The notes under the pieces are model-generated. The model was not told the origin of the DNA. It saw only the letters and a list, made by a program, of their open reading frames with translations, and ran no database searches. The position numbers and the translations under genes are program-made. Shown here in pieces: positions 53,844-61,570 of a DNA stretch of 64,000 nucleotides. Position 1 is the stretch's first letter, and each line of letters starts with the position of its first letter. Where the stretch lies: assembly GCF_003952725.1 (NCBI RefSeq), contig NZ_CP032509.1:2876001-2940000 (forward strand). Direction: 5' to 3'. This DNA is from Georhizobium profundi (GTDB lineage: Bacteria > Pseudomonadota > Alphaproteobacteria > Rhizobiales > Rhizobiaceae).

Positions 53844-54035
53844 TGTATGGCGAAAAACATGAGTGATCTAGCCGCAAATTCATGAAGAGACACAAGCCGC
53901 CATTGGCGCCAACCGCGTTTGGGTTGGCTGGGCGCACCAGGTGCTCGGCGATGAGGTTTGGCCTCGGTCGGGATCGGTCTAGCCGATGCCCTCAGTCGCT
54001 GCACGCAGATCGATGGTCGTCCTGATTGAGATTCG

Positions 54036-54692
54036 CTAATCGAGTCGCTTGATCAACGCAAGAGGCAGCCATGAAGGACACGCACGTCCGAGCACGTCGA
54101 TCAGCACCAGTGCCGCATCCTTGTTCGAGCCAGCGCCCAACGCCTCGATACGCCCCTTGAACGAACCGAATGGCCCATCCTTGATGGCCACCGTCACGCC
54201 GATCTTGAAGGCCTTCGCATCTATAGGAACGCGGCCATAGTCGAACGCTCCTCCGGCTGCCAAGTCCTTGAAAGCCTCCATCTCTTTCAACCGAATGGGC
54301 ATCGGCTGCTCACCCGCACCGACGATCCAGATCACGTCTTTGACGCCGCGAAGACCAGCAAAACAGGCAGCGCCAGGCACCACATGCACGAACACGAATC
54401 CGGTGATGACAGGTGCATCGACAGACGGCTTTTTCCGACCACGACAGCGCACCATCTTCCGCTTCCGCATAGGAATCCAGCTGTGGATATCCGCCTTGTC
54501 GAGCCGCTCCGCCACGTCCTTCTCATGCCCGTTCTGCACCACGAGTGCGTACCAGCGCCGCTCGCCGGGCTGGTGCCGGTTGGCCATCGTGAGGAAGCTG
54601 GCCTCGATCGAGCGAAGGTTGGCCGTCTTTTGCATCCTGCGCAGCGCTGCCTCGGCATCGGCGAATCCGGTCTCAAGCCGCTTCATCATCAT
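54036..54692 (-). CDS. NusG-like transcription antitermination protein
   Basis: A roughly 218-residue NusG paralogue. The NGN domain is clear (RRWYALVVQNGHEKDVAERL, then PVITGFVFVHVVPGAACFAG), and the C-terminal KOW motif is VAIKDGPFGSFKGRIEAL. NusG family members bind RNA polymerase and alter pausing and termination. A phage-specific copy just ahead of the late operon suggests that it is the late-gene antiterminator, in place of lambda Q. I chose the ATG at 54692, eight bases after GAGGG. Confidence 0.85.
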   Translation of the reverse strand: MMMKRLETGFADAEAALRRMQKTANLRSIEASFLTMANRHQPGERRWYALVVQNGHEKDVAERLDKADIHSWIPMRKRKMVRCRGRKKPSVDAPVITGFVFVHVVPGAACFAGLRGVKDVIWIVGAGEQPMPIRLKEMEAFKDLAAGGAFDYGRVPIDAKAFKIGVTVAIKDGPFGSFKGRIEALGAGSNKDAALVLIDVLGRACPSWLPLALIKRLD

Positions 54693-56013
54693 CGTCCGCA
54701 TCCCTCGTCTTCACTGCCTTCTCGAATTCCGCCATCGCCGCATCCGGGTCCTCGCCCGCCGGCATCCAGATCCAGTCCGGTCCATCCGGCAGCCATGGCC
54801 AGCCCCGCCGCTCATGGAGCGTGCGCCAGGCGTCCCACTCTGCCGAGCCGCTGCGCACCTTTTCGAAGCTGTCCGATAGCGCCAGCGCCGCCGCGCCCAC
54901 CTGCCATCCGCGCCCCTGCGTTGCTTGAGAGTGCATCCGGTTCACCAGCGGCCAGCCATGCGTTGCGAGGTGCTGAAGCCGGTAGCGCTCGCCCTCGTCT
55001 CCGCCTCGCTCGATCATCGTCTGGATGAACAGCGAAGGCTTCGGCAGCGGCCCATGCGGCTTCAGAAGATCGATGAAGCGAAACGCGCCCCATGCCTTGC
55101 CAAAGGGTGCCGCCTGATCGCTTGGCGCATGGCCCTTCGCCGCCATCGCCGCCTTCTCCGCGCGCTCCAGGATCTTCGGGTCCAGCCCGTTCCAGAGCTT
55201 GTCGCGCAGATAGTTCGCGATCGGAATTGGCTGTTTCTTGCGCCGCTCGACGTCCCGCAGATAGGCGTCCCGCCACCGCTCGGCCTCAAGACGCTCGTCG
55301 GCCGTCAGCTTGGCGTATTGCCGCGCCACATGCCCAGGCGACGAGGTGTCCCAGTTCTTCCACGGACCAGCGTCGAAGCCCCGACCGTTGCAGAGCCGCA
55401 TGACGCGCTTCTCGAAATCGGCCGTTCCCGGTCGATCGCATGTTTTCGGCTCATCGGCCTTCGATCTGTCGGCCTGGACGGTCTCGCCTTCGTCCTGCCC
55501 TTCCAGATCGGAATCGATCCCGCGCTCGCGCGCCTCTCTCTCTGAGGGGTCTTTGGAGGGGTAAGGAGGGGTTGGGTGACAATGGGAGTCACCCTTATCT
55601 TTCGCCGGTGTCACCCTTAGCGTGTCGCCGGTGTCACCCTTAGGCGCATCGTCGTCATCCGCTAAGGGTGACACCGTGTCACCCTTATTTGCAGGCGTCT
55701 GTGCGGAGACCGCATTCCAGCCGTCCGCCTCAATCCGCCGCAGCACGGTCAGGTCCATGGCATATTCGCGAGTAGATTTCGGGCCGCAGCCGCCGGCGCG
55801 CACGATCGCCAGCAGGCCGATATCGACCATCGTGGAAAGCTCGCGCTGCACCTGCCTTGTGGAGCATTGCGCCGCGCGCGCGATCGTGGCGACCGCCGGG
55901 AATATCCGGCTGCCATCGTCATCGCAGGCGTCAATCAGCTTGAGCAGGATCAGCTTGCGGCACGGCGTGCCCATGTCGCAGCCAAAGCCGAGCCCGAGGA
56001 GACGCGCACTCAC
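54673..56013 (-). CDS. Replication initiator-like protein with HTH domain
   Basis: A 446-residue protein. The N-terminal region (CRKLILLKLIDACDDDGSRI onward) is a winged helix-turn-helix like those of phage replication proteins (IARAAQCSTRQVQRELSTM). The middle is disordered and contains KGDT/KGDS units that are coded by the iterons. The C-terminal third is helical with AWGAFRFIDLLKPHGPLPKP. The presence of iterons inside the gene is the classic lambda O arrangement. The GTG start at 56013 overlaps the stop of the upstream PP-loop gene (GTGA). Confidence 0.8.
   Translation of the reverse strand: MSARLLGLGFGCDMGTPCRKLILLKLIDACDDDGSRIFPAVATIARAAQCSTRQVQRELSTMVDIGLLAIVRAGGCGPKSTREYAMDLTVLRRIEADGWNAVSAQTPANKGDTVSPLADDDDAPKGDTGDTLRVTPAKDKGDSHCHPTPPYPSKDPSEREARERGIDSDLEGQDEGETVQADRSKADEPKTCDRPGTADFEKRVMRLCNGRGFDAGPWKNWDTSSPGHVARQYAKLTADERLEAERWRDAYLRDVERRKKQPIPIANYLRDKLWNGLDPKILERAEKAAMAAKGHAPSDQAAPFGKAWGAFRFIDLLKPHGPLPKPSLFIQTMIERGGDEGERYRLQHLATHGWPLVNRMHSQATQGRGWQVGAAALALSDSFEKVRSGSAEWDAWRTLHERRGWPWLPDGPDWIWMPAGEDPDAAMAEFEKAVKTRDADDDDEAA
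55571..55687. repeat. Iteron cluster, candidate phage replication origin
   Basis: The ten-mer GTCACCCTTA or its reverse complement occurs at 55588, 55610, 55633, 55663 (inverted) and 55678, with a partial inverted copy at 55571-55580. The direct copies are 22, 23 and 45 bases apart, close to two and four helical turns. The last two form a perfect 12-1-12 inverted repeat with arms TAAGGGTGACAC. All lie inside the initiator gene, as in phage lambda. Confidence 0.75.
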
Positions 56014-56930
56014 AGCCCGCACCCGGCTTCACAGATCATGAGCATCCCCTGCCCACGTTCTTCATCAGTCGACAAATCAACCTGATCCAGTGGAACACGA
56101 TCTCGGTGGAGATACTCGCGCTCGCGCATCCCAGGTGTCTCGCGGATGAGCCGGTCGATTTCGACAGCGTCAGCCCAAGCTTTCGGATCGTTGTCCCGAA
56201 GCCATCGCCACTCCGCATTCGTCTTGTAGGGGCAAAAGATGCAGGCGCTCTTGGGAGGGACGGGAAAATCGTGTGCTTGCAGCCAAGCAACACAGTCACG
56301 TCGGGACATGCGTTTTTCGAGAAGCGGATAGCGGTTCACTGTCCACGACGTGAATGCAGCGCCCGCACGAACAACCTCGTCGGTCGAGATCCCAATCCAC
56401 ACCTCACAGGAACCGGAGGGTATTCGCTGCCGAGGTCTAAAGCCGAGCAGTTCCCGCTGCTTCTTCTCCAGCGGCTCGATCTTGAACTCTCGGGTGCACT
56501 GCCTCTTCCCCTGGCCGCCGCGACCGCTTTTGCCGCCAGAAGTGAAGAAAGGCGCGCTGACAAATCGATCATTATTGATGACCCCGCGACCAGCAGATCG
56601 GTTGCGAATTCGGTCTGAGAGGCTGCCACCCCGGCTGACCCGATGTGTGCCCACGCGCCCATTGCTGTAGCGCTTGATCTGTCCATCGAGCCAATCGAGC
56701 TGCGCGTAGGTCGCATCGCTTTCGTCGCCGACATCGGCATGAATGATGTGATCAACCCACGGAAGCTCGCCAACGCACATCATCAGGATGAGCGTCGTCG
56801 ACTGGATGCCGCCGCCGTTCGAAAGTACCCGAAGTTTCACACCATCGACTGGCCCCCAAGACCAGCCGCCGCGGCGGACCCGTGGGAGCTTTGCCGGCTT
56901 GGGTGATGAAAGCTCGAAAACAGTCGTCAC
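56010..56930 (-). CDS. PP-loop ATPase related to PAPS reductase
   Basis: A 306-residue protein of the N-type ATP pyrophosphatase fold. The PP-loop is SNGGGIQS (residues 37-44), preceded by the strand VKLRVL. Further blocks are HADVGDESDATYAQLDWLDG and, near the C-terminus, SACIFCPYKTNAEWRWLRDN with two cysteines. The family includes PAPS reductases, tRNA thiolation and DndC-like DNA phosphorothioation enzymes; this branch is frequent in phages and of unknown activity. The GTG at 56930, after GAGAGGGGG, is the most probable start. It is coupled to the initiator gene and divergent from the HNH gene. Confidence 0.8.
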   Translation of the reverse strand: MTTVFELSSPKPAKLPRVRRGGWSWGPVDGVKLRVLSNGGGIQSTTLILMMCVGELPWVDHIIHADVGDESDATYAQLDWLDGQIKRYSNGRVGTHRVSRGGSLSDRIRNRSAGRGVINNDRFVSAPFFTSGGKSGRGGQGKRQCTREFKIEPLEKKQRELLGFRPRQRIPSGSCEVWIGISTDEVVRAGAAFTSWTVNRYPLLEKRMSRRDCVAWLQAHDFPVPPKSACIFCPYKTNAEWRWLRDNDPKAWADAVEIDRLIRETPGMREREYLHRDRVPLDQVDLSTDEERGQGMLMICEAGCGL

Positions 56931-57040
56931 AACGGCACCCCCTCTCGCCGCTCCGCATGAGGAAGCGACTTGCCGCCACCCGGAGGTTGCAATCTGAGAG
57001 AAAGACGGCAATCTCGGCCGGTAACGGGGGAGAGAGCTTT

Positions 57041-57888: not shown

Positions 57889-58218
57889 TCATTGGCTGCA
57901 TGAAACCGCGCCCCCTGTCGTCGCGGGCGCCCGGTCCCGCTTGTCCCGCACCGCGGCGAGCGAAAGCCGCGCGCCGAGAAGTGCTCTGTCTGTTGAAAAG
58001 CCGAGTTCGCCATATTCGCTGCGCGTCCGGCGAAGCGCGGAGATCTCGACTGCGAGCCAGTCGAGGCCGGGCTGAAACTTCAGGCGCTCCAGCTCCGCGC
58101 GGATCTGCAGCTCGCGCTTGAGCAGGATCTCCAGCGGCATCCGAAGCAGCATGTCCGCCCGTGCCCCGTCGCTGGCAGCGTCGCGCAGGCCTTCGATGAT
58201 CGGCAGAAGGTCATCCAT
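57889..58218 (-). CDS. Hypothetical helical protein
   Basis: A 109-residue protein (MDDLLPIIEGLRDAASDGAR) with long helices (MLLRMPLEILLKRELQIRAE). Its start overlaps the end of the ParB/MT-A70 gene by 8 bases, so it belongs to the middle operon. No family recognised. Confidence 0.6.
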   Translation of the reverse strand: MDDLLPIIEGLRDAASDGARADMLLRMPLEILLKRELQIRAELERLKFQPGLDWLAVEISALRRTRSEYGELGFSTDRALLGARLSLAAVRDKRDRAPATTGGAVSCSQ

Positions 58219-59377
58219 CGGAACCGCCCTCGCCTGCCTCGAAGCCCCAGAACGACCAGCTGCCATTGCGGCGCACGTCGTCCGGCGCGAGCGATGCCTC
58301 ACGCTGGAAAAGCTCCAGCTTGCGCATGTCGGGATAGAGCCGCTCGATCATCTCCGCGAAGAAGCGCGGCTTGGCCGAGTGCCGGCCCGTCTTTTCCGCA
58401 TGGACGGAAGCCGCCTGCGTGCCCGGCAGCGGCGCCGGAAAATCGCCGCGCTTGCCGATCAGCAGCAGCTCGTGCCGGTCCCGCACCCACCGCCCCATGC
58501 CGATGTCGATCTTGTCCCAGATCATGCAGGTGACGAAGTCGAAGCCCCATGCGCGCAGAACGTCGACCCCGTCATCGGTTCGGTTCGCCGTTACCCAGAG
58601 AAAGCACACCGCATCGCGCGTCGCCGGCGAGGTCTTTCCGACGCAGAGCTCCTTGATCGCGTCGAGATCCATGGCCGGGTACATCAGCCCCCGGTCCTGC
58701 CCGGTCTCATCCGACCACGCTTCCTGTTCCCAGGCCGGGTCGGCATACAGGATCGGATAAGCCGCGACCGGCATCGTGCCGGCCTGGACGGTTCCGCGCG
58801 CGGCGATTTCGTTGATCAGGTCGGTTCGAACCCGCCGCCCATGCTCACGTTGGCGATCGCGAATCGACTTGGCGGTCGCCATCAGCTCGCGGGCGTTGTC
58901 CGGCTCGGGCAGGAAAGCCGTGCGGATCGGCTTTCGCGCCGGCTGCACGACGCCGTCGCGCCCCTCGACTTCCTCATGGTGGGGAATTTCCCCACCAGCG
59001 ACGAGGCTCTTGCGCACCTTCGCCACGGTCTTGTGATCGACGGCCAGCATCTGCGCGATCGCGCGCGACGAGATCGAAGGCGTGTCCCGCAGCTGGTCCG
59101 CGATCAGGTCGCGCTTCTGGGCTGCCGTGAGGTGCCGCCGCGAAACGTTCAGCTCGCGCGCCAGCGTCCGCTTCTCTTCCTCCGCAAGCCCCTTGCGCAC
59201 GAAACGCGGCCAGTCGACGAGGCCGAGGCTCTCGCAGATCGCCACGCGGTTATGCCCGTCGAGGATGTTGCCATCCTCGTCATATTCGACCGGTACGAGC
59301 ACGCCATGCGCGACGATCGAGGCTTTGAGCGCGGCGCGGTCATCGTCGGAAAGTGGCGGGAGGAGCTGATACTTCAT
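58211..59377 (-). CDS. ParB-like/MT-A70 methyltransferase fusion
   Basis: A 388-residue protein. Residues 1-130 are a ParB/Sulfiredoxin-type domain (NILDGHNRVAICESLG) with a helix-turn-helix (ISSRAIAQMLAVDHKTVAKV). Residues about 200-388 are an MT-A70 adenine methyltransferase domain (PILYADPAWEQEAW, AVCFLWVTANR, MIWDKIDIGMGRWVRDRHEL, ERLYPDMRKLELFQR). The catalytic DPPW is DPAW here (213-216). It may methylate phage DNA; activity with the changed motif is uncertain. Confidence 0.88.
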   Translation of the reverse strand: MKYQLLPPLSDDDRAALKASIVAHGVLVPVEYDEDGNILDGHNRVAICESLGLVDWPRFVRKGLAEEEKRTLARELNVSRRHLTAAQKRDLIADQLRDTPSISSRAIAQMLAVDHKTVAKVRKSLVAGGEIPHHEEVEGRDGVVQPARKPIRTAFLPEPDNARELMATAKSIRDRQREHGRRVRTDLINEIAARGTVQAGTMPVAAYPILYADPAWEQEAWSDETGQDRGLMYPAMDLDAIKELCVGKTSPATRDAVCFLWVTANRTDDGVDVLRAWGFDFVTCMIWDKIDIGMGRWVRDRHELLLIGKRGDFPAPLPGTQAASVHAEKTGRHSAKPRFFAEMIERLYPDMRKLELFQREASLAPDDVRRNGSWSFWGFEAGEGGSDG

Positions 59378-59847
59378 CAGCCGTGCTCCGGCATCATGCC
59401 GAGCGCGACGAGATAGGTGTCGAGAATCGCCTCTTGCTCGGCCCGCTCGTCCGGATCGAGCTTGCGCAACGCGATCACCCGCCGAAGCGCCTTGGTGTCG
59501 AAACCGCAGCCCTTCGCCTCGGAATAGACAACCTTGATGTCGTCGGCGATCGCCTTCTTTTCTTCCTCGAGCCGTTCGATCCGTTCGACGAACGCCCGCA
59601 GCTGGTCGCGCGCAACCCCGTTCGTGTAAGGCGATGGCGCCTCGCGCTGCACAGCCTCCACCGCGTCGACTGCCTCTTTGAGCTGCGACAGCGTCGCCGG
59701 CGGCGTCTCGGTGCCGTGCGGCAGCGTTATCGTCACAGTCATCTCGGAATCATCGGCAGCAGCCGCCGCCTTGCCGCGCTTCGCCTTGGCCGGTTTAGAA
59801 GCGGACGCTTTCGGATTGCGCGGGCTGAAAGGATCGTAATCGGCCAT
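59377..59847 (-). CDS. DUF2312/GapR-family nucleoid protein
   Basis: A 156-residue protein. The last 90 residues contain [40 protein letters not shown] and [13 protein letters not shown], the DUF2312 signature of GapR, the Caulobacter protein that binds overtwisted DNA ahead of replication forks. The N-terminal 65 residues are a phage-specific basic extension rich in Lys and Ala. It overlaps both neighbours. The likely role is to aid phage replication or topology. Confidence 0.9.
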
Positions 59848-60509
59848 CACGCACCCCCCTCGTCGGCGATCGGCGTGTCAGCCTCTGCAAACGACCGCTG
59901 TCGGAGCTGCCGGCACACGGCCTCTGCGATCTCACGGCCTGTCATGCGCCAGACCATCTCGCAGATCATGGAGTGTCGGGTTGCCCGCGAGCCGACCGAA
60001 ACCGAATGCCGCCGAGCTTCGTCGCAAAGCTCCTCGCGCCAGAGCAGTCCGAGAAGGGCGCTGGCTCGGGGCTGCAAACGGACATCCTTGAAAGGATCGA
60101 AAGCTCTCGACCAGTACTGAGGGATTGGCGTCGGATAGCGCCAGCAGTGCCGCCGCCGTCTGTAGACGCCGAGAAAAGCCGGGTGATTGAGATCGATCTC
60201 CGAGGGTGAACCATCGCTCATCCATGGCTCACGGTACTCTGCGAAATGCTTTTCATGTGCCGCGACGAAGACGAAGTGGCAGCACTTGCTGAAGGCGTCC
60301 CACTGCTCGTCGAGCCGCTTCAGCGTGTCTTTCTCGGATTTGATCTCGACGCCGATGATCGCTTGGCGAGTGACCGCCGCGACATCGATTCTGTTCGATC
60401 CCGTCCCGGCTACGTTGAGCTCGTGGACGATCCGCGCCGTCGGAAACAATTCCCGCAGTCGGCTCACGACAAAGTCGCGCAGTTCGCGTTCCGCTGATGA
60501 TCCGGCCAT
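59847..60509 (-). CDS. PD-(D/E)XK nuclease-like protein
   Basis: A 220-residue protein. The stretch [20 protein letters not shown] contains an Asp and an Glu-x-Lys spaced as in PD-(D/E)XK nucleases (MmcB-like), with a preceding helix ([20 protein letters not shown]). Recognition beyond this motif is not possible. It overlaps the next gene and may process replication intermediates or act in exclusion. Confidence 0.6.
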
Positions 60510-60843: not shown

Positions 60844-61344
60844 TTACGCCCCCGCTTGTCCGTCGCGTGCCCGAGCCCGGGCAGCATGGTGAGCGCAGTA
60901 TGGACGGTTGAGCTTCAGCTCGCCGGCGTCGCGGTCCGCCACTGGCAGGCCGCAGAACCGATGTTCATCGGCAGCCACCTGATGACCGCTCACCGGGAAG
61001 TGGCAGGCAAAGCCTCCCAACTGCGCAAGGCTGATGTCCTTCGCCAGCCGTTCGGCATCCAGGCCGGCTGCCGACGCCTTGACGGCAGGCGCCAGATCAT
61101 CCTTCAGCTTGACGGCCTTCGGACCGCGCGGCGTTTCGGGCGCCTCACGCTTGCCGAGCTGGATACGGGTGCCCGGTCCGCCATGGCCACCGGGCTCGCG
61201 CGGCGAAGGCACACCCATGCGGTTGAGCTTGCCGATCACGGCGTTGCGGCTCACTCCAAGGCGTTGCGCGATGAGCCCGCAGCTCATACCCTCGCGGCGC
61301 AGATCTCTGGCGGTTTCCGCCATGCTGCTGGTCCAATCAACCAT
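60844..61344 (-). CDS. GcrA-family cell cycle regulator
   Basis: A 166-residue protein of the GcrA family, which in Caulobacter recruits sigma70 RNA polymerase to promoters methylated by CcrM. The N-terminal helix-turn-helix is clear (LIAQRLGVSRNAVIGKLNRM), the middle is disordered, and the C-terminal end has the family cysteine/histidine pattern (CHFPVSGHQVA, FCGLPV, YCAHH). Length is similar to host GcrA. It overlaps the downstream gene and is part of the middle operon. Confidence 0.88.
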   Translation of the reverse strand: MVDWTSSMAETARDLRREGMSCGLIAQRLGVSRNAVIGKLNRMGVPSPREPGGHGGPGTRIQLGKREAPETPRGPKAVKLKDDLAPAVKASAAGLDAERLAKDISLAQLGGFACHFPVSGHQVAADEHRFCGLPVADRDAGELKLNRPYCAHHAARARARDGQAGA

Positions 61345-61570
61345 TGCTCGCACAGCCTCCGATGAAGAGGCCGCCGGGCAACCGGTCGGCGACAGGATTG
61401 ACCGCGCAGAAGCGGCTGGCGAAATCGATCGTGTCGACATGACGATCCAGCGGCGAAAGGGCTGAAGAACCGGCCTCGACATCCAGCCGCGCGGCGTCGT
61501 CCAACGGCCGGTCGACAGGCGGACGCCTGTAGAGCCCCGGCCGCCGCTGATTGATCCGGGCCGCGCTCAT
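61337..61570 (-). CDS. Small hypothetical protein
   Basis: A 77-residue protein (MSAARINQRRPGLYRRPPVD) with no known domain. It overlaps the GcrA-like gene by 8 bases and the CII-like gene by four, so it is probably co-translated. Confidence 0.5.
   Translation of the reverse strand: MSAARINQRRPGLYRRPPVDRPLDDAARLDVEAGSSALSPLDRHVDTIDFASRFCAVNPVADRLPGGLFIGGCASNG

Follow-up and report, generated by a model that had tools for sequence, protein, structure and literature searches.

Why should the gene of a phage replication initiator carry, within its own coding sequence, a cluster of short repeats? This question is raised by the 64,000-base stretch of the Georhizobium profundi chromosome that was analysed here (the window). 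The answer favored in this study, which comparisons of the sequence make very probable, is that the array is the replication origin of a temperate phage placed inside its own initiator gene, as in lambda O, and that the initiator binds the iterons of its own gene. The gene and the parts of its product lie in the window as follows.

54673 to 56022, minus strand: replication initiator gene, 449 amino acids, with an alternative GTG start at 56013
55684 to 56022, minus strand: N-terminal winged-helix domain, residues 1-113, confident in the AlphaFold model
55459 to 55683, minus strand: linker, residues 114-188, of low confidence and probably disordered, encoding nearly all of the proposed origin
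54679 to 55455, minus strand: C-terminal domain, residues 190-448, confident in the AlphaFold model

The start at 56013, which had been used in the sequence-only reading, is plausible given that relatives begin with MSA in consensus, and the longest open reading frame begins at 56022. The product matched PHROG 270 (E 2.3e-26) and five further PHROG families, and all six are named for replication initiation. The match to HTH_36 was weak (E 1e-4, 22.4 bits, under the Pfam cut-off of 25) and was the only one in the Pfam scan, in which neither a RepA_N nor an RP-C domain was found. A scan against NCBIfam gave no match, and a PDB sequence search returned nothing at E <= 1. The AlphaFold model, built from 100 sequences, had a mean pLDDT of 84.6 for the whole protein and 90.2 for the C-terminal domain alone. 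The linker is its one long stretch of low confidence, with pLDDT below 50 at residues 114-152, 154-156 and 158-188, and is probably disordered because it was predicted with very low confidence. Foldseek found no match to the C-terminal domain in the PDB at E <= 0.001, which does not make the fold new, and VIA-align gave Z scores of at most 3.7. This domain is proposed to recruit host replication proteins.

The initiator gene lies in DNA that IMG/VR treats as viral, since a viral contig of 44,579 bases in that collection carries a 100% identical gene (L001). The surrounding genes are phage-like, coding for terminase subunits, a minor tail protein, and NusG-like, CII-like and repressor proteins. 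The NusG-like antiterminator gene (54036-54701, minus strand) overlaps the 3' end of the initiator gene, an order that is also annotated in several rhizobial phages, and a phosphoadenosine phosphosulfate reductase-like gene (56010-57011, minus strand) adjoins the initiator gene. The neighbouring genes that were scanned, a part of the prophage open reading frames, included no phage helicase or helicase loader. Rfam had nothing at 54000-57000, and the DnaA box TTWTNCACA, a consensus given in the available part of PMC6209633, had no exact match in the window. Two circular rhizobial plasmids, L273 (NZ_CP049252.1) and L274 (NZ_CP140896.1), carry phage structural genes together with a homologue of the initiator, and L273 has ParA/ParB as well. 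Their gene tables, which are incomplete, name no further replication initiator, and neither homologue holds a significant 8-mer array. These two replicons may be phage-plasmids run by the initiator homologue.

The repeats themselves are arranged as follows.

55678 to 55687, plus strand: iteron, exact GTCACCCTTA, right arm of the 12-1-12 inverted repeat
55663 to 55672, minus strand: iteron, exact GTCACCCTTA in opposite orientation, left arm of the 12-1-12 inverted repeat
55633 to 55642, plus strand: iteron, exact GTCACCCTTA
55610 to 55619, plus strand: iteron, exact GTCACCCTTA, in a codon phase unlike that of the other direct copies
55588 to 55597, plus strand: iteron, exact GTCACCCTTA, the closest exact copy to the second element described below
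55574 to 55580, plus strand: sixth copy, core only (GGGTGAC), in opposite orientation

The sequence-only reading had reported five copies, four direct and one inverted, with the direct copies 22, 23 and 45 bp apart and the last two copies forming a perfect 12-1-12 inverted repeat, and each of these statements was confirmed; the arms of the inverted repeat (55663-55674 and 55676-55687) are 100% complementary. It had overlooked the sixth copy, the units downstream, the GANTC site and the breadth of the array. No further copy of GTCACCCTTA with 0 or 1 mismatch was found elsewhere in the window. Counted by cores, the successive copies in the window (L008) are 12, 33, 23, 22 and 14 bp apart, and neighbouring direct copies are separated by about two helical turns. 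The array begins at about codon 112 (counted from 56022), between the winged-helix and C-terminal domains, and is encoded by residues 112-150, with the further elements encoded by about 150-168. Since array and elements fall inside the low-confidence linker, the origin would be written where the amino acids seem to matter least. The linker of the plasmid pSK41 has likewise been reported as an origin-bearing stretch of low amino-acid constraint (PMC5703833, available in part).

Chance was addressed with 2000 shuffles of synonymous codons within the initiator gene, a null that is conservative because the iterons' own codons remain in the pool. Six GGGTGAC cores were observed against a shuffle mean of 0.72 and a maximum of 5, and some 10-mer reached five copies in only 2 of the 2000 shuffles. 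8-mers alone are a weak test, as at least five copies of one arose in 102 of 2000 shuffles. Comparison with relatives gave stronger evidence.

Lack of conservation at the DNA level in relatives had been named in the sequence-only reading as evidence that would count against an origin, and conservation was instead found to be strong, both in codon identity and in recurrence of the array. At conserved residues, codon identity was 0.94 within the iterons (15 columns) compared to 0.59 outside them (110 columns; Mann-Whitney P = 8e-8 for 19 related sequences, not all of them independent). In those sequences the KGD codons AAG GGT GAC of the iterons are invariant wherever the residue is kept. The iteron glycine is GGT in every relative that has glycine there, and the window gene uses GGC for 22 of its 38 glycines. 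The array was present in all seven homologous loci from the first protein search and in 11 of 12 homologues from a further one, the twelfth (L155) being truncated; it was also found in Mesorhizobium phage vB_MseS-P1. The same order on the gene strand, with an inverted pair 12 bp apart ahead of direct copies spaced at 23 and 22 bp, is seen again in L002, L003, L004 and L007, whose proteins are 45-59% identical to the window initiator. In L005 (41% identical protein) the direct copies are 21 and 21 bp apart. Some of the loci compared are near duplicates: L005 and L006 look identical, L119 and L005 come from one contig, as do L065 and L003, L145 resembles L003, L144 resembles L002, and L116 and L152 look alike in the stretch compared for codon identity. 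L001 and L037 come from the window's own prophage or from a twin of it, in the case of L001 because the gene is 100% identical. The layout of the array and its conservation at the DNA level are thus matters of direct observation.

The same data bear on the idea that the repeats are a KGDT repeat of the protein linker, with the likeness of the DNA as a by-product. Three copies do read KGD(T/S), but others read RVT in another frame or SPL when reversed, and the spacings of 22 and 23 bp are not multiples of 3. Also, codons are nearly fixed in the iterons and not outside them, and the linker, predicted at very low confidence, is probably disordered. This explanation is extremely improbable, and the tests of codons, frames and the control palindrome led to its rejection, as they did for chance.

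The breadth of the array was assessed by a search with DNA only, ignoring proteins, for GGGTGAC-N5-GTCACCC in viral contigs, which gave at least 120 matches, a sample. As a control, a palindrome with each half-site read backwards was used, which had 73 matches in the whole viral-contig collection. At least four copies within 200 bp were found at 70 of the 120 matches listed and at none of the 73 control matches. Reading frames of at least 120 amino acids covered 65 of those 70 array loci, and 56 of these were non-redundant. In these 56 frames, three or four of which were doubtful choices, the copies occupy all six combinations of orientation and phase. When the array-bearing frames were scanned, with the window added and L037 (an antisense copy of the window) dropped, 50 of 56 matched PHROG 270 and 46 matched HTH_36 at E <= 0.001; seven of 56 matched RP-C at the same threshold and nine a DnaD-like helicase loader family. 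The presence of PHROG 270 and HTH_36 in most of these frames suggests that one type of iteron serves many diverged initiators. Among 385 genomes of the class, the palindrome was found in five, including the window's own genome with two sites. A dense run of GGGTGAC at 3800-3925 of L048, mostly 8 bp apart and outside a long open reading frame, looks like a different kind of repeat.

A second element lies beside the iterons.

55543 to 55572, minus strand: three ACCCCTC-type units (55565-55572, 55555-55562 and 55543-55550), 10 and 12 bp apart
55521 to 55542, minus strand: GAGAGAGAG followed by a GCGCGCG-type tract, conserved at the DNA level in many relatives

About three short units directly follow the arrays, and these are AACCATCA-like (AACC-type) in many phages and ACCCCTCC, spaced at 10 and 12 bp, in the window's clade. 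The ACCCCTC units of the window can be regarded as a GC-rich variant of the AACCATCA type, and units of both types are proposed to be a strand-opening or helicase-loading element. At least three such units were found in 39 of 79 genes compared to 4.5 expected (maximum 10 in 200 codon shuffles), with a pattern that was written after the unit sequences had been inspected, and GAGAGAGA followed the units in 34 of the 79 genes compared to 1.7 expected (shuffle maximum 7). Arginine is encoded by AGA at 63 of 216 positions in the unit zone and at 108 of 2862 outside it. AT content peaks at the unit zone, in the 40 bp after the array, with an excess of 13 points across 52 loci. The peak is weak in the window, where these 40 bp are 42.5% AT compared to 34.7% for the gene and 17% of the gene's 40-bp windows are equal or higher. 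L023, L037, L047 and L136 were left out of the AT and unit analyses, and L065 was also left out of the unit count.

A search with GAACCATCA-N3-GAACCATCA alone gave at least 120 matches, compared to 11 for the backwards pattern in the whole collection, and a longer unit pattern gave 54. Among the 77 non-redundant open reading frames over the unit-pattern matches listed, 65 matched PHROG 270 and 63 matched HTH_36. Upstream, within 230 bp, at least four copies of one 8-mer were present for 55 of 99 matches listed with one pattern and 41 of 43 with the other, compared to 9 of 426 control windows. With each locus counted once (nine were common to both patterns), such an array preceded the units in 88 of the 133 loci among the matches listed. 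The 38 top upstream 8-mers formed 16 groups once those sharing a 6-mer were merged, two of which, found in L306 and L350, are doubtful because they resemble simple repeats of protein type. Many of these 8-mers are of GGGTG- or CCCCCGC-type, and outside those groups CTAGTAAA, AAGTTCAA, ACGATCAC and ATCCTGTC are examples. By these comparisons, the second element is found after iterons that belong to a dozen or so unrelated groups. The units, mostly spaced at 11 bp (92) or 12 bp (151), occupied two or three reading frames in 95 of 123 distinct genes among the matches listed, so that it is the DNA that is kept and not the EPS peptide. They are also found in Pseudomonas phage PseuP_224 and Vibrio phage 1.236. 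A BLAST of the 31-base unit consensus against named phages gave four weak records, and because so short a query does not suit BLAST, the evidence for the taxonomic range of the units comes from viral contigs and from a small number of named phages.

These features also bear on whether the repeats are an operator through which the initiator only represses its own transcription, with the origin elsewhere. Self-repression via iterons is known for some plasmids, and binding of this kind would give the same conservation. However, some 340 bp of the gene precede the array, and across the group the AACC-type units and an AT-rich stretch come after it, as in an origin. An operator role alone is very improbable on this evidence.

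Some homologues without GGGTGAC have other arrays, namely CCACCGGC (L009), GGGGGTGA (L010), GATCACAA (L011), CCCCTGCC (phi2LM21, L140) and GTGTCTCA (a Labrenzia phage, L142), each with a codon-shuffle P <= 0.005 (200 shuffles). The 8-mer array was not significant in L012, L014, L141, L143, L270 and L272; in L018 the best 8-mer had three copies (P 0.19) and one 7-mer had P 0.005; and L013, L015 and L017 were left out of the repeat test. A wider survey found at least four copies at P <= 0.01 (100 shuffles) in 11 of 30 loci, of which two have all copies in one frame and at least one (L243) has a doubtful open reading frame. When pairs were matched for C-terminal score, the helix-turn-helix score averaged 0.44 for those sharing an iteron (122 pairs) and 0.11 for those with different iterons (104 pairs), in a comparison of 46 hand-chosen proteins whose pairs are not independent. 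The type of helix-turn-helix, as judged from these scores, tracks the iteron sequence and the C-terminal domain does not. The window's chromosome has three related initiators in all. L016 (2608109-2609449) encodes a protein 93% identical to that of the window and has the same iteron array, and these two initiators could cross-activate. L018 (3509542-3510381) has a C-terminal domain related to that of the window initiator (0.39), but its helix-turn-helix is unrelated (0.06) and its repeat a different one.

That the repeat sequence follows the initiator's own helix-turn-helix argues against the array being a partition or maintenance site for some other protein. One such protein could be the ParB-like/MT-A70 product of 58211-59377, whose gene is close by and which has a weak ParB-like part. 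However, the array persists where the neighbours differ, as in vB_MseS-P1, whose annotation has genes for a DUF982 protein and a cytosine methylase closest upstream, and a partition site is very unlikely.

The array of the window also contains a potential link to the host.

55586 to 55590, strand not given: GANTC site (GAGTC), a motif match that overlaps the last exact iteron (55588-55597)

GANTC, the CcrM site, occurs 75 times in the window compared to 371 expected from shuffles, so that it is about five times rarer, and another copy is at 55511. At least one GANTC was found in the array zone of 15 of 18 clade genes, and these 18 genes together have 24 in that zone compared to 11.2 expected (maximum 18 in 500 shuffles). 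In 16 clade genes GANTC has a density of 10.67 per kb within the array zone, compared to 0.29 beyond it, and two other GGGTGAC groups showed a weaker trend (4.41 compared to 0.84 and 5.88 compared to 1.95 per kb), in a comparison whose 'alpha-like' group was hand-picked. GATC showed the opposite trend. The replication region of the prophage also encodes a GcrA-like protein (60844-61482), a GapR-like protein (59377-59850) and the ParB-like/MT-A70 protein (58211-59377), all on the minus strand. The GcrA-like and GapR-like proteins score below the NCBIfam equivalog cut-offs and above those of Pfam, and the three are predicted to be a set of factors of host cell-cycle type. CcrM-like phage methylases beside replication modules are described in the available part of a paper on Sinorhizobium LM21 (PMC5537653). 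Methylation of GANTC at the last iteron could couple firing of the origin to the CcrM cycle of the host.

The model proposed here is that the initiator would be made from the prophage and that its winged-helix domain, probably as a multimer, would bind the iterons. The initiator-iteron complex would then open the adjacent AACC-type units, present here as the ACCCCTC variant, and the C-terminal domain would deliver the host helicase or primase to the bubble. Recruitment from the host is suggested because the scanned neighbours include no phage helicase or loader.

The plan of an origin within the initiator gene is already known from lambda O, pSK41, repC and pPR9, and the window would be a further case. 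The comparison with lambda O made in the sequence-only reading holds in layout, with a motif and an initiator unrelated to those of lambda. The iterons start at about codon 117 of O and 112 of the window gene, lambda spacings are 20, 24 and 23 bp compared to 22 and 23 bp for direct neighbours here, and lambda has an AT-rich stretch (78% AT) downstream. However, lambda O contains neither GGGTGAC nor GTCACCC, and no AACC-type unit with up to 2 mismatches was found in the 121 bp after lambda iteron 4. Also, the P gene lies beside O, whereas the window initiator has NusG-like and PAPS-reductase-like neighbours and no loader among those scanned. RK2-type plasmids, whose Rep has two winged-helix domains and whose origin is outside rep, serve only as a model for the AACC-type units, and kinship with the window system is not implied. 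In those plasmids, iterons are accompanied by repeated DNA unwinding element units that are bound single-stranded by the winged-helix Rep (PMC4081077, in part). Origin iterons within the initiator gene are described for O of lambda and Stx phages (PMC7466680, in part).

The Staphylococcus plasmids pSK41 and pPR9 share the plan of a winged-helix N-terminal domain, an origin in the linker-coding part and a C-terminal domain, which in these plasmids is thought to be host-specific (PMC5703833, in part). The pSK41 initiator is of the RepA_N family and its C-terminal domain binds primase, whereas the window protein has no RepA_N match. According to the available part of the same source, pPR9 is a natural swap in which a phage-like module, a pfam13730 (HTH_36) N-terminal domain with its origin, replaces the pSK41 domain and origin, and it replicates autonomously (PMC5703833). 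In Rhizobium the repABC origin is inside repC and silent changes abolished replication; the available part of that study reports that no iterons were found in repC (PMC3155836). The window thus resembles repC in having a proposed origin within the initiator gene and differs in having iterons and no RP-C match. HTH_36 proteins act as plasmid initiators in Alphaproteobacteria, as the accessible parts of two studies of Paracoccus plasmids indicate (PMC3832669, PMC6209633); there pAES7 has a partial iteron at the rep start codon, and Paracoccus origins are not described as lying in a linker.

In its available text, a survey of 103 alphaproteobacterial phages contains neither 'iteron' nor 'origin of replication' (PMC10783043). 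The best-ranked open-access literature matches did not describe the GGGTGAC array, the AACC-type units, the placement of GANTC or a unit shared across unrelated iterons, and a search by the letters of the iteron gave primer-type papers among the best 30 of 2,203 matches.

Taken together, the data raise the possibility, which we hold tentatively and at somewhat less than an even chance, that phage initiators of this type share a two-part origin cassette within the gene. One part would be a changeable lock, the iterons matched to the helix-turn-helix, and the other a common opener. The opener would consist of some three AACCATCA-like units, most of them spaced at 11-12 bp, which go with at least about a dozen unrelated groups of iterons and would be recognised by a conserved factor. 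Rhizobial phage origins would in addition be marked by CcrM sites, hooking replication to the host cell cycle together with the GcrA- and GapR-like proteins that the phages carry.

This modular plan of an origin in the initiator gene appears to be common to many other bacterial viruses as well. If this is right, a short DNA signature would suffice to place the origin of replication in a large class of phages from sequence alone, with an accuracy of about two hundred bases. Matched pairs with related C-terminal domains exist, even in one bacterium, and would provide a system for asking how a winged-helix domain chooses its iteron. The occurrence of AACC-type units in so many of these phages suggests a step of strand opening or helicase loading that they have in common. 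The placement of GANTC would open cell-cycle control over phage replication to direct testing.
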